Source: a virus. From it: 24,946 nucleotides of DNA. The stretch's first letter is position 1; every line of letters begins with the position of its first letter. Of this stretch, positions 4,856 through 23,081 are shown one piece after another. Location: the IMG/VR virus record IMGVR_UViG_3300032278_000112, positions 1 through 24,946 of that record; one strand, given 5' to 3'. A model generated the notes under the pieces. The model ran no database searches. It was not told where the DNA came from and was given only the letters and a program-made list of their open reading frames with translations. A program made the position numbers and the translations under genes.

Positions 4856-4933
4856 TGGCGGTCCCAATGGGATTTGAACCCATGTTGCTAGATTGACAAT
4901 CTAGAGTCCTAGGCCTAACTGAACGATGGGACC
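4856..4933 (-). tRNA. tRNA-Asp (anticodon GTC)
   Basis: The 78-nt cloverleaf has acceptor GGTCCCA pairing with TGGGACC, a G discriminator and encoded CCA. The anticodon stem CTAGA/TCTAG encloses loop TTGTCAA (GUC). The T-arm is CATGGGTTCAAATCCCATT. Confidence 0.95.
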
Positions 4934-5097
4934 AGTAAAAATAGCAAGGGGCAGGCTTATGCGTAGCTCTGAGCTTATTCCACGCTCCCCATACCCCTCA
5001 TAGCATCCGTAACCTCAAGTCCCGTCTGGCATGTTCACGCATCACAAAGTGATCGTAGTAGCTGGTCGACTCTCTCGTACAGATGGTTAGCTAATTT
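4934..5097 (-). ncRNA. Candidate structured non-coding RNA between tRNA-Asp and a small gene
   Basis: The 164 nt contain no credible gene and are clearly richer in G+C than their surroundings. Several nested stems can be drawn: AGGGG (4947-4951) with CCCCT (4994-4998), enclosing GCGT (4961-4964) with ACGC (4982-4985) and AGCT with AGCT (4965-4975); ATCAC-AAA-GTGAT (5041-5053); TAGCT (5059-5063) with AGCTA (5089-5093). In the minus orientation there are also two tiny overlapping frames, of 14 and 8 codons. It matches no RNA class I can name (not tmRNA, 6S, RNase P or a hammerhead core). Being embedded between tRNAs, it would be co-transcribed and could be processed with them. Strand is assigned from the neighbours. 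Confidence 0.45.
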
Positions 5098-5250
5098 TTA
5101 AAAAGGACAGCCTGATGCAACTGAACAAAATCCATGCGGCTTGTCCCAATGATATACTGTCGAACTAATCAATGCAATCCATATTGAATTTTTCCATAAC
5201 CAAGACCATGTAAGCCATGGTATAAACGGAATTATTACTTCTAAACCCAT
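5098..5250 (-). CDS. 50-residue Trp-rich membrane peptide
   Basis: ATG at 5250 is preceded by AGAGATTTAAT (SD AGAGA). The product starts MGLEVIIPFIPWLTWSWLWK. It contains one or two hydrophobic segments (about 4-19 and 22-34) unusually rich in tryptophan, then a polar tail with two cysteines (CSVASGCPF at the end). Probably a small membrane protein. It lies 15 nt downstream of tRNA-Ile and directly upstream of the candidate structured RNA. Function unknown. Confidence 0.6.
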   Translation of the reverse strand: MGLEVIIPFIPWLTWSWLWKNSIWIALISSTVYHWDKPHGFCSVASGCPF

Positions 5251-10056: not shown

Positions 10057-11084
10057 TCCGTTTTTTTCATTAATCCATAATTCAATGGATTTGACAAATC
10101 AAAAATAAACAATAATTCATCATTCTTATATACATGTACTATTGGATATCCTGGAATTTTATCAATCAACACCCATGCACTATGTGCTAATGTATTTTGA
10201 AATACATATTCATTTATATTATTAGACTCATCCCTGAATTCTAATTTTATTTCATAATCTTCTTGTTCATTGTACGCTTGTCCGCCCATTACTAACATTT
10301 TTGATCTACCCTCAGACCAATCTAAAAACGGACACAATTGTACATCAGGGTGTTGAGGATTTAATAATGATTTCTCAATATGTTCTGATCGATCATGTTG
10401 AGCCATTACCCCAAATCTCCCATGGTTAAGAGTTCTTTTGGGTAAAATTTTATATGATATATTCTCTCGATTCATTAATGAATAATAAATCTGTTCTAAT
10501 GTAAACTCTTCTTTACTATCAAAAGAGAAAAACTCATCTTGACCAAATATTTTCCATAAAGACTTTTTAATAGCATCGGCAGAAAGTGTAAAAAACTCAG
10601 TATTTACTGAATTTCCTGGAACGAAAAATTCATAAAAAATCGCATCATATTCCTTCAATAATTCATGATGATATTCAATTTCATTGACTACATCATATTG
10701 ACAATCGTATGTGAAAAATGTTATGCTTGGCGCATTATATAATTTAAGTAGAATTAAAGATAAATCGTGATATTGTCGGTGATTTGCATATTGATGGTAT
10801 GGGATCTTTTTTTCAAGATTAAATCCTGGTATTGGCAATTCCCAAAAATAATGTTTGTATTGTTTTGTGTGAGCATTTTCAAAATCAACATTTCCCATAA
10901 TGTTGTTTTTATCTACCAAACACAAATCGCATAATTCTTGTATACGACTATCTACAGGAATATGAGAAGAAAATGATATAAAACTTCTCGGCCATTGACT
11001 TCTCAAAGAATTAATTAATCCTATCGCATGAAAAATTCTAGTTTCAGTTGTACAATGACCACCAATTGCAAAAAATTGTTGCAT
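10053..11084 (-). CDS. Unrecognised 343-residue protein in the epimerase/radical SAM operon
   Basis: Begins MQQFFAIGGHCTTETRIFHA with AGAGCAACTT upstream. The N-terminal pattern (IGGHCTTETRIFHAIGLINSL) could be the first Rossmann motif of a glycosyltransferase or sugar-handling enzyme, but I see no DxD or other decisive signature. The C-terminal third is beta-rich (KLEFRDESNNINEYVFQ, then WVLIDKIPGYPIVHVYKND). No membrane segment or signal peptide. Its stop overlaps the epimerase start (ATGA), and its own start overlaps the stop of the upstream open frame (TAATG). Context suggests sugar metabolism or glycosylation, by inference only. Confidence 0.8.
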   Translation of the reverse strand: MQQFFAIGGHCTTETRIFHAIGLINSLRSQWPRSFISFSSHIPVDSRIQELCDLCLVDKNNIMGNVDFENAHTKQYKHYFWELPIPGFNLEKKIPYHQYANHRQYHDLSLILLKLYNAPSITFFTYDCQYDVVNEIEYHHELLKEYDAIFYEFFVPGNSVNTEFFTLSADAIKKSLWKIFGQDEFFSFDSKEEFTLEQIYYSLMNRENISYKILPKRTLNHGRFGVMAQHDRSEHIEKSLLNPQHPDVQLCPFLDWSEGRSKMLVMGGQAYNEQEDYEIKLEFRDESNNINEYVFQNTLAHSAWVLIDKIPGYPIVHVYKNDELLFIFDLSNPLNYGLMKKTE

Positions 11085-11410
11085 TAAGTTGCTCTTTGTA
11101 TCCTAGTTCTCATAATATTATTTCCGTATTTCATTTCAATTTCCATAACTCCAGGTAAAGGAGCAATGTCCATTTCTTTAGCCCGCCTCACCTTAAACTG
11201 AATCTCTCCCCATTTATCTAAGTCTTCTTCGGAAATTGCATCATTAAAAAATTTACAAATTTCTTCAAATGATTTTGAGCGATGTTGAGAGGACGTTCCT
11301 CCTTGTTTTATCTTTTTTATATGTCCTCCCTTTGTATTATATAAAGAGAGTAATTGGGTAGGGCCTAGACTAACCCGAAAGATAACTCTTGCATGGCACT
11401 CGGGCCACGT
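11084..11410 (-). pseudogene. Open frame of 108 codons without a usable start
   Basis: Between an in-frame TAA at 11411-11413 and the stop overlapping the next gene (TAATG), this frame is open for 108 codons. It reads like protein: TQLLSLYNTKGGHIKKIKQ, then KSFEEICKFFNDAISEEDLD, ending MRTRIQRAT. No ATG occurs before codon 80. Two good SD-like runs (GGGAGGA and AAGGAGG) are inside it but are followed by no ATG, GTG or TTG at suitable spacing. Its first 20 or so codons overlap the structured element at 11347-11566. A short frame starting ATG about 20 nt upstream (MTFDKRGPSAMQELSFGLV) overlaps it and ends at a TAG. A -1 shift near that TAG would fuse the two. Options are a decayed gene, a programmed frameshift or bypass, or an exon of a gene split by a structured intron. 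Confidence 0.4.
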
Positions 11411-11566
11411 TTATCAAAAGTCATCTCCTCCCTCACCCGGTGGCACGTACCGTTGGTCTTATTGGAGGGGTACTCTTAACTTCATCTAGGTAGAGTCACA
11501 TATTCACGTTCAGTACTAGGGTCCGTCCCCCGTTCCTGGCTTTAGTGTCATTTGCCCAACTACTCT
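11347..11566 (-). ncRNA. 220-nt structured element closed by a long terminal helix
   Basis: The ends pair: AGAGTAATTGGG (11347-11358) with CCCAACTACTCT (11555-11566), 11 of 12 positions paired with a single A-C mismatch. The interior is GC-rich against an AT-rich background and offers more stems, e.g. GGGT/ACCC (11356-11376), the palindrome CACCCGGTG, and CCTCC with GGAGG across the centre. It follows the CmoA-like gene by 3 nt. Possible identities: a stand-alone ncRNA, a riboswitch-like leader for the 11084-7549 enzyme operon, or a degenerate self-splicing intron. I find no group I core sequence that I can defend. Strand is assigned from the surrounding genes, because the helix would form in either orientation. 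Confidence 0.55.
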
Positions 11567-11568
11567 TT

Positions 11569-12285
11569 TTAATCTCTTCCATAATCCTTAATAGCAATCG
11601 CTCCTACGAATGCATGATTTCTCCAAAACGGTTGTACTGTAGAAAATCCCGCATATGATACCATATGCTCAACTTGTTCCCATGTATTAGGTTTCATCAT
11701 ATGTCTCAGAGTGCGTTCTTTATCCATAATATCTTCTGTAGTAAATTTACCTACTGATCTTTTATAATCATAATAATTAAAAGTAATCATTTCTTGAACC
11801 AATGCACTTTTACATATTGTTTTTTCTGCAAATATAAAAGCACCACCCTCGTTTAATCCACTATATATGTTTCTTAATACTTCCATTCTATCTTTTTTTG
11901 ACATAAACTGCAAAGTAAAAATTGATGTAACAAGACTTGTTCCAGTCCAATCTCTATATTTTTTAATATCTATTGGATGCTTAAACTCTACATCATGTCC
12001 TTCTTTTTTTAATGCGGCTTCTCTTTTAACTAAATCTTTTTTGAATCCATCTGCAATTTCAACACCAACCCATTTTGCATTCTTACAATGATCTGAATTA
12101 TGTCTTAACATTGCTTCTGTTACTTTTCCTGTGGAACATCCAATATCTAATACAGTTGTTCCATCTTCAATAAAATATCTAGAAAGAGAAATAACATCTT
12201 GTAATAAATCCGAATAACCTCTGACGGATCTATTAATATGCTCATCAAATCCTTCTTCTCTATGTGCAAAAGTAAAATCAGCCAT
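11569..12285 (-). CDS. CmoA-like SAM-dependent enzyme
   Basis: A 238-residue protein resembling CmoA, the carboxy-SAM synthase of tRNA cmo5U34 biosynthesis, over its full length. The match includes FDEHINRSVRGYSDLLQ (13-29; CmoA has [21 protein letters not shown]), VLDIGCSTG (45-53), FTLQFM (123-128), IYSGLNEGGAFIFAEK (140-155), and a C-terminal YAGFSTVQPFWRNHAFVGAIA. CmoA makes carboxy-SAM from SAM and prephenate, and CmoB then uses it on U34. In E. coli CmoA, Arg199 contacts the extra carboxylate. Here gapless alignment puts Glu190 at that site and Arg191 one residue later, so Cx-SAM synthesis versus ordinary methyl transfer is undecided. It starts 6 nt after the 2OG oxygenase. The window also carries a tRNA-Val(UAC), a substrate class of this pathway. 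Confidence 0.75.
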   Translation of the reverse strand: MADFTFAHREEGFDEHINRSVRGYSDLLQDVISLSRYFIEDGTTVLDIGCSTGKVTEAMLRHNSDHCKNAKWVGVEIADGFKKDLVKREAALKKEGHDVEFKHPIDIKKYRDWTGTSLVTSIFTLQFMSKKDRMEVLRNIYSGLNEGGAFIFAEKTICKSALVQEMITFNYYDYKRSVGKFTTEDIMDKERTLRHMMKPNTWEQVEHMVSYAGFSTVQPFWRNHAFVGAIAIKDYGRD

Positions 12286-12291
12286 TTTTAG

Positions 12292-12909
12292 TTACTCCTT
12301 ATATATAAGTGTTTTTTTGATATTAAAAGAAATTGTTCTACGTTCACCTTCACATGAAAATGGATTTACTGTATGATAAAGTCTTGCTGGAAATAAATAA
12401 AAGTCTTTAACTTCAGGAACAATTACGTGACTACCTTCTTCTGCATCTTGAGGATTTCTCATTGAATTATTAATAAAGGTTATCGCACCATCTTCTGGTT
12501 TTTTTATTTTTAATTCGTCTGGTATTTTTAATACTACAATAGCTGATAAATCTAAACTATGAGTATGTGGGGGTTGATAATCATGTTTATACATACTATT
12601 CACCCAACATTGTTCCATAGTTACGTTACATTCCTGTAAAAAAGGATAACTGGTGGAAGGTTCAAGTTGATTCAAATTTTCAAAATAGTATAATGCAGAA
12701 TCTAAAAAAACTGATAATATATTTTTTTCCTTTAATGTATTAACTGGTATTTCAAATTGTCCTTTTATATGTCCTACTAACAAATGATTTATGTCTGGTG
12801 TATCTTTATTATCAATAAGCTCATCTGTTATTTGTAAAAGTTCATGAAATACATCATCTCTTAATTTCCATTTACCTATCGTAGGACCAAAGGGCTGTAT
12901 CTTTATCAT
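12292..12909 (-). CDS. Phage-type 2OG-Fe(II) oxygenase
   Basis: A 205-residue protein of the putative 2OG-Fe(II) oxygenase family common in marine phages. PPHTHSLDLSAIVVLKIP gives the proximal His115 with His117 or Asp120, FINNSMRN follows, DFYLFPARLYHTVNPF gives the distal His179, and GERRTISFNI gives Arg191 for 2OG. Substrates of this family are generally unknown; hydroxylation of proteins or small molecules is expected. It lies 6 nt from the gene on each side, in an operon with the CmoA-like enzyme. No signal peptide. Confidence 0.85.
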   Translation of the reverse strand: MIKIQPFGPTIGKWKLRDDVFHELLQITDELIDNKDTPDINHLLVGHIKGQFEIPVNTLKEKNILSVFLDSALYYFENLNQLEPSTSYPFLQECNVTMEQCWVNSMYKHDYQPPHTHSLDLSAIVVLKIPDELKIKKPEDGAITFINNSMRNPQDAEEGSHVIVPEVKDFYLFPARLYHTVNPFSCEGERRTISFNIKKTLIYKE

Positions 12910-22091: not shown

Positions 22092-22106
22092 ATTTCTTTC
22101 TCATAT

Positions 22107-22184
22107 AAAAAACGAGTTGGTATAAAATTGGTTAATTGCTTTGCAGTATTTACTTTTCCTCTTTGCAAGATTTATACCAACTCG
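22107..22184 (-). terminator. Hairpin with T-tract (terminator or attenuator)
   Basis: In the minus orientation CGAGTTGGTATAAA pairs with TTTATACCAACTCG over 14 bp (22184-22171 with 22126-22113), enclosing a 44-nt loop, and is followed by TTTTTT (22112-22107). The long loop is unusual. TTGC and GCAA inside could extend it. It sits just upstream of the SD of the 57-residue gene, so an attenuator role is possible. Confidence 0.65.
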
Positions 22185-22201
22185 CATGAGAAGTTGAATA
22201 T

Positions 22202-22386
22202 AAATGAGTAGGAGTGTGATCACAGGAATAGAATAGTATACACACACTCCTACCTGTTTTCATTTACAAAATCGGGACGTTCACAGGAATTATACACTTG
22301 TCCCAGGACTCTTCATATCGACAAGATTCCAAACCCGTCTGTTCATTTCAGAACAGAAAAGGAGAGAGTGATTGCGGCTCACTCCC
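22202..22386 (-). other. Hairpin-rich non-coding stretch
   Basis: There is no gene between 22092 and 22475. After the terminator-like hairpin at 22107-22184, four more stem-loops follow: GTAGGAGTGTG with CACACTCCTAC (22208-22253), GGGAC with GTCCC (22274-22304), CTGTTC with GAACAG (22339-22356, loop ATTTCA), and GAGTGA with TCACTC (22366-22384, 7-nt loop). The first two of these four share a loop motif, TCACAGGAAT then TATACAC, with the middle bases present or absent. 22387-22475 shows nothing clear. Strand follows the neighbouring genes. Confidence 0.6.
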
Positions 22387-22475
22387 TATAGCCACCAGCA
22401 AAATTTTTATTCTTGCCTCACTTCTATATAGTGGATAGAAAAGGAATATTCATAATCAACTATCAACGAAGGCAT

Positions 22476-23081
22476 TTAATCCCCAAAGCTATAATTAATT
22501 TCGCCAAGTCCTTCTATTCTATGTGAAACTTTATCTTTAGGATGTACTAGACAATCAAATTGAGGACCTCCTCGAGGTGTATTAGGAGTTCCTGTTAATA
22601 TTATATCATTATACTGTAAATCTACAATCTGTGAAATATAGTCAATCGATTCAGCTAAATTATATTTCATATCTGCTGTAGTTCCTCTTTGTTTCTCTAT
22701 TCCATTAATAGTAGTCGTTAGAGTAAATATACTATTAATGTCAACTTCTTCCTGCGTAAGTAAGACTGAAGATATAGGACAAAATCCAGTCCTTGCTTTT
22801 GCCATGGGTAAATGATGATCACGTCCGCAAATATTTTCACACGTAATGTCACCAGCAACCATTAATCCTTTTATTGTATTGTTTCTACCAACAACAATTG
22901 CCAATTCGGCTTCTGTCCATACTTTGTCTGTTCTGAATCTAGGATAAGGTACTGTTCCGCCATCGTATGTTAAACATGCTTTTGATTTTAGAAAATATAG
23001 TGGAGGATGATTGTCGTTCCCAACTCCTTTATAATTTAACGCTAAACAATGTATATTATTCACGGGATAATTTTTAATCAT
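22476..23081 (-). CDS. Fumarylacetoacetate-hydrolase-family enzyme
   Basis: A 201-residue FAH-fold protein with AGGATGGAACC before the ATG. The motif order is canonical for the minimal (roughly 200-residue) isomerase/hydratase type: ALNYKGVG (14-21), PLYFLKSKAC (27-36), DKVWTEAELAIVVGR (52-66) with the metal-binding ExE pair Glu57/Glu59, VAGDITCEN (75-83) with Asp78, GRDHHLPMAKARTGFCPI, and DIILTGTP near residue 160. Such enzymes cleave or isomerise C-C bonds of acylpyruvate-type acids using Mg or Mn. Related small members include YcgM-type acylpyruvases and hepta-diene-dioate isomerases. The substrate here is unknown, and I do not know of a well-described phage copy. It follows the ParB-like genes and shares their T-rich leader style. 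Confidence 0.88.
   Translation of the reverse strand: MIKNYPVNNIHCLALNYKGVGNDNHPPLYFLKSKACLTYDGGTVPYPRFRTDKVWTEAELAIVVGRNNTIKGLMVAGDITCENICGRDHHLPMAKARTGFCPISSVLLTQEEVDINSIFTLTTTINGIEKQRGTTADMKYNLAESIDYISQIVDLQYNDIILTGTPNTPRGGPQFDCLVHPKDKVSHRIEGLGEINYSFGD

Follow-up and report, generated by a model that had tools for sequence, protein, structure and literature searches.

Bacteriophage T4 codes for two small stable non-coding RNAs at its tRNA cluster, rnaC and rnaD (species 1 and 2), to which no role has been assigned (PMC3014915). GOLLD and ROOL, structured non-coding RNAs of phages and prophages that are often found near tRNA islands, are likewise of no known function (PMC12286853), and the manA and wcaG motifs are structured RNAs known both from marine sequences and from T4-like cyanophages (PMC2864571). 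Here we describe a further structured RNA, hereafter type 1, which resembles the two T4 species in being a non-coding RNA of T4-like phages that often lies beside tRNA genes, and GOLLD and ROOL in being phage-encoded and near tRNAs too. It is found in a 24,946-nucleotide viral sequence (IMG/VR record IMGVR_UViG_3300032278_000112, positions 1 to 24,946; this whole stretch is hereafter the window) as a GC-rich island (GC ~0.47-0.50 against ~0.3 in its surroundings) whose flanking genes are all on the minus strand:

11347 to 11566, minus strand: type-1 RNA, a predicted structured ncRNA gene spanning the whole island; the covariance model R1 matches 11352-11565 (153 bits)
11569 to 12285, minus strand: CmoA-like tRNA methyltransferase gene, immediately upstream of the type-1 RNA (phrog_4752, E 1.6e-58)
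11084 to 11320, minus strand: small ORF downstream of the type-1 RNA, with ATA at its start position

The first-pass annotation of this DNA had located a GC-rich island in the gap between the CmoA-like gene and a start-less frame and had noted that its ends pair with a single mismatch. Both observations hold: the island begins 3 nt from the stop of the CmoA-like gene, and its ends, AGAGTAATTGGG (11347-11358) and CCCAACTACTCT (11555-11566), are present in the window and pair, when read on the plus strand, with a single A·C mismatch. As this A·C is a G·U on the minus strand, the mismatch disappears there and all 12 positions of the end helix pair. On the minus strand the island also forms a more stable fold than its shuffles do (z -2.73; 2/200 shuffles), which bears out the suggestion of structure beyond chance, and the case is clinched by covariation across the relatives described below. 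A plus-strand RNA was rejected because the fold of that strand is indistinguishable from those of shuffles (z -0.65); the pairing seen on the plus strand is real, but the RNA belongs to the minus strand. The 2OG-oxygenase gene (12292-12909), previously placed downstream, in fact lies upstream of the type-1 RNA. The conserved small ORF at 11084-11320 reads ATA in the window where relatives read ATG, with no ATG, GTG or TTG there, and could represent an AUA start, a lost start or a sequence error. Elsewhere in the window, positions 22100-22476 (minus strand) lack a clear ORF and make up a long intergenic region that contains several repeats resembling hairpins (e.g. GGAGTGTGTGTATAC...GATCACACTCC).

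The first two relatives came from the sequence that follows homologues of the CmoA-like gene; a short pattern from these two led to 20 viral contigs and a degenerate pattern to 39 viral contigs. A covariance model and an Rfam search had been put forward by the first-pass annotation as the means of checking its proposal. The resulting model, R1, finds 40 type-1 copies, namely that of the window and those in 39 other viral contigs, at 117-179 bits, with one match per virus contig searched at E 0.01, a 177 kb contig included. Cellular origin was rejected, in that 11 genome contigs matched the pattern and 0/11 match R1; the pattern TAGTCTAGNCCCT gave chance matches except in L084, L094 and L108. 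At the curated gathering threshold, Rfam 15 recognizes tRNAs alone in the window, and the relatives gave the same outcome; a sensitive Rfam search of 11080-11640 (E up to 10) returned chance matches only. Blastn found no match to the type-1 RNA in a collection of 50,697 phage records and short chance matches at most in isolated phages. The R1 search was negative in nine isolated T4-like phages (HTVC008M, S-CRM01, S-B05, DLP6, Cr30, phiM12, RHph_I1_18, OC and T4), with nothing credible in T4 in either the tRNA region (filters off) or the whole genome. In five isolates that we inspected, the glycosyltransferase gene, which follows the RNA in some carriers, so closely trails the previous annotated gene that no room is left for an RNA before it. 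Our search of the literature found no published description of the family. Because the T4-type major capsid protein Gp23 is present in three of the longer carrier contigs, we take the carriers to be T4-like phages; judged by their relatives rather than by sample records, they are probably marine. On the comparative sequence evidence, type 1 is a real, previously undescribed structured RNA family of many uncultured T4-like phages. R1 also detects, at E 2e-5 and weaker, a divergent sister RNA (type 2), which in L127 follows type 1 in tandem, lies elsewhere in the virus that has type 1 in L086, and occurs in nine contigs in total (E down to 3e-13).

Type-1 copies, 34 in number, were aligned with MAFFT blind to structure, and 44 proposed pairs were tested for covariation on this alignment. 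The predicted fold is a three-way junction, in which the helix P1 closes two arms, P2-P3-P4 and P5-P6-P7/P8, with an optional P9:

11555 to 11566, minus strand: closing helix P1, 5' strand; 7/7 tested pairs (11555-11561) doubly changed, 98.3% paired
11347 to 11358, minus strand: closing helix P1, 3' strand; a U-run comes next in most relatives
11497 to 11547, minus strand: P2-P3-P4 arm; P2 is 11543-11547/11497-11502
11534-11540/11506-11515, minus strand: P3, part of the P2-P3-P4 arm
11529-11532/11518-11521, minus strand: P4, part of the P2-P3-P4 arm
11484 to 11490, minus strand: P5 5' strand (CCUAGAU); P5 100% paired in 34 copies, 3 doubly changed pairs
11364 to 11370, minus strand: P5 3' strand (GUCUAGG), from the covariation alignment
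11428 to 11470, minus strand: P6b arm, capped by the P7/P8 hairpin (loop ACGU)
11468-11470, pairing with 11374-11376, minus strand: P6a
11379 to 11427, minus strand: P9 hairpin, in long copies only, including the window's

Across the 34 copies 93.5% of the cells of these pairs are paired, and compensatory double changes are seen in 23 of the 44 pairs, a number equalled by 0/500 shuffles; when partners were slid as a control, pairing fell to 23-46% and the doubly changed pairs to 1-6. A parsimony count on the tree likewise gave 42 compensatory double events versus 1-3 in the slid controls. Within the proposed pairs GU cells far outnumber AC cells (115 versus 10), indicating that it is the minus-strand RNA of the window that is under selection. 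The outer five positions of P1 pair in the window copy, and P5 contains a U-G pair that is invariant in 34/34 copies, while P7/P8 is weaker (78.5% paired) and is the least certain part of the fold. The patterns used to gather relatives fix parts of P2-P4 and the P5 5' strand, so that invariance there is partly due to the selection of copies; P1, the P5 3' strand and P6-P9 lie outside these patterns. For the window copy the comparative structure comes out at -64.3 kcal/mol, some 9 kcal/mol above the unconstrained minimum of -73.2 kcal/mol, and the fold thus rests on covariation, not on energy. In L089, L090 and L121 an unrelated insert of similar size stands in place of the P9 hairpin, which suggests that the RNA has an exchangeable domain. 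An outer helix devoid of compensatory change, or a conserved peptide, had been named at the outset as what would speak against a structured RNA; the outer helix covaries, and a conserved peptide was rejected, the frames through the island being short (none that lies mainly inside it exceeds 66 aa) and the pairing being conserved instead.

The neighbours of type 1 comprise tRNAs (Asn, Asp, Pro and others), a glycosyltransferase, a 2OG-oxygenase, a nuclease and small ORFs, and its copies are always oriented as these neighbours are; the glycosyltransferase gene downstream of some copies adjoins the sliding clamp gene (phrog_223). The contigs L093, L124, L128, L131, L133, L153, L154 and L156 have tRNAs next to type 1 or type 2. 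A run of at least four U is found no more than 18 nt past P1 in 34/44 copies (25/35 distinct ones), as against 0/44 before P1 and 1/44 about 60 nt further on. Five copies have TTGACA-17-TATAAT 15 nt ahead of the model start, and the features after them differ; as these five share one upstream gene, they represent one ancestral arrangement rather than five. The window copy has neither a run of four U nor a consensus promoter. The varied contexts, together with the U-runs and promoters, speak for an RNA gene that stands alone and whose own closing helix may end it. Directly after the type-1 RNA in L124 (5299-5390), L126 and L137 we also observed a tRNA-like gene with the anticodon loop CTGTAAA and a CCA end, which is reported neither by ARAGORN nor, in L124, by Rfam.

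Based on these comparisons, we consider it likely that the island encodes, as a gene of its own, a structured ncRNA of 160-225 nt from an undescribed phage family. The first-pass annotation had listed a stand-alone ncRNA among its options, and this option is backed by the strong covariation, by the diversity of gene contexts, by 3' ends that resemble terminators and by the promoters of some copies. A point against it is that every copy points the same way as the gene after it, as a cis-acting element would, usually 8-110 nt ahead of that gene or tRNA. The main rival is accordingly a leader (riboswitch, anti-terminator or attenuator), for which P1 and the U-run, resembling a terminator as they do, would be a regulated terminator of the next gene or tRNA, and the highly conserved unpaired bases would fit this as well. 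We judge a leader to be rather unlikely, because what follows the RNA ranges over features of unrelated function, tRNAs among them, because L127 and L170 have type 1 in a tandem arrangement with another structured RNA, and because we noticed no conserved alternative pairing. The consistent downstream pathway that marks a riboswitch is not seen among the glycosyltransferase, nuclease, tRNA and other genes that follow, and the earlier idea of a large riboswitch for an epimerase/radical SAM/oxygenase operon is likewise not supported, the relatives preceding these other genes and the oxygenase gene lying upstream. The RNA may nevertheless have a regulatory role on what comes after it.

Self-splicing and self-cleaving elements are, as a class, frequent in phages, and the presence of type 1 at many positions and its compact multi-helix fold could be read as signs of a mobile element of this kind, such as a remnant group I intron or a similar ribozyme. 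This is very improbable, as no Rfam intron or ribozyme model matches at E up to 10, the helix order does not, by inspection, produce the group I P3/P7 pseudoknot, and the RNA is intergenic in the contexts examined, splitting no frame and reaching at most into the 3' end of the frame before it; the remnant intron first suggested is not supported on the same grounds. Furthermore, all that is left of the RNA in L168 is the 5' strand of P1, an empty site that points to deletion of the RNA and fits neither splicing nor homing. The palindromic ends and GC-rich core might instead act as DNA, in packaging, recombination or replication, in keeping with the terminal inverted repeat and the single match per contig. 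We give this very little credence, since the genome position changes, the excess of GU over AC cells means that pairing is kept in the RNA of one strand only, and the U-G pair of P5 does not vary. A reverse transcriptase, which would adjoin a retron ncRNA, was absent from the 19 window ORFs scanned against PHROGs, a subset of its ORFs.

The sites occupied by type 1 are shared with other structured RNAs. The gap before the glycosyltransferase gene holds type 1, a divergent type-2-like RNA (L189-L191), other elements or nothing, and no element in this gap has a match in Rfam. A third conserved GC-rich non-coding element of ~270 nt (GATGACGATTCGTGAGAAGTTCGCAG...TCGAAGTACAAGGACA) precedes the glycosyltransferase gene in L170, L179, L181-L183 and L188, and in L170 it stands in tandem ahead of the type-1 RNA. 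A fourth putative RNA gene, in the same gap in L196 (L196:220-490), has TTGACA/TATAAT upstream and ends, AAAAAGGGTGA / TCACCCTTTTT, that pair perfectly and are followed by T-rich sequence; both of these elements were assessed by eye. The window itself contains another such RNA:

4938 to 5098, minus strand: second structured RNA, immediately before tRNA-Asp(GTC); by the model it is not related to type 1
4856 to 4933, minus strand: tRNA-Asp(GTC)

This RNA has relatives in L084, L094, L268 and L269, and the five-sequence consensus fold has 42 pairs, 8 of them doubly changed. The slot before tRNA-Asp(GTC) is thus filled by this RNA in the window, by type 1 in L093 and by type 2 in L154. As the same slots hold different RNAs, these look like interchangeable cassettes, as seen in a few slots. 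We tentatively suggest that T4-like phages could hold at least four or five structured RNA cassettes (160-270 nt), only two of them recognizably related, that swap in fixed, tRNA-type slots in the manner of accessory genes.

The comparisons show that type 1 forms a family, on which strand it lies, how it folds, what surrounds it and that its slots are shared. Going beyond this, we posit that the stand-alone RNA would be made from the minus strand, by transcription that starts at a promoter of its own or that takes in adjoining genes and tRNAs by read-through. P1 would hold its 5' and 3' ends together and, with the usual U-run, probably also serve as its terminator. By analogy with orphan phage RNAs near tRNA islands, the folded RNA would most likely act in trans by binding a host or phage factor, and its conserved unpaired bases offer concrete targets for pull-down. 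These observations add a family of RNAs that is very strongly supported by comparison, plus a sister family, both missing from Rfam 15. If the cassette proposal is true, the repertoire would constitute an RNA-based accessory gene pool, serving for instance in counter-defence or host translation takeover.

Set beside the described systems, type 1 is distinct from each of them. GOLLD, which forms a nanocage, is often >800 nt, and ROOL is ~660 nt with another fold, in contrast to the 160-225 nt of type 1, which matches neither in Rfam. The manA and wcaG motifs, also without an Rfam match to it, lie in the 5' UTRs of particular metabolic genes, whereas type 1 has no consistent downstream function. 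T4 rnaC has a tRNA-like GTTCGAATCCC stretch that type 1 lacks. Related phages fill identical genomic slots with different structured RNAs, and such swap-in cassettes would provide a comparative handle on the role of T4's two stable tRNA-region RNAs (PMC3014915).
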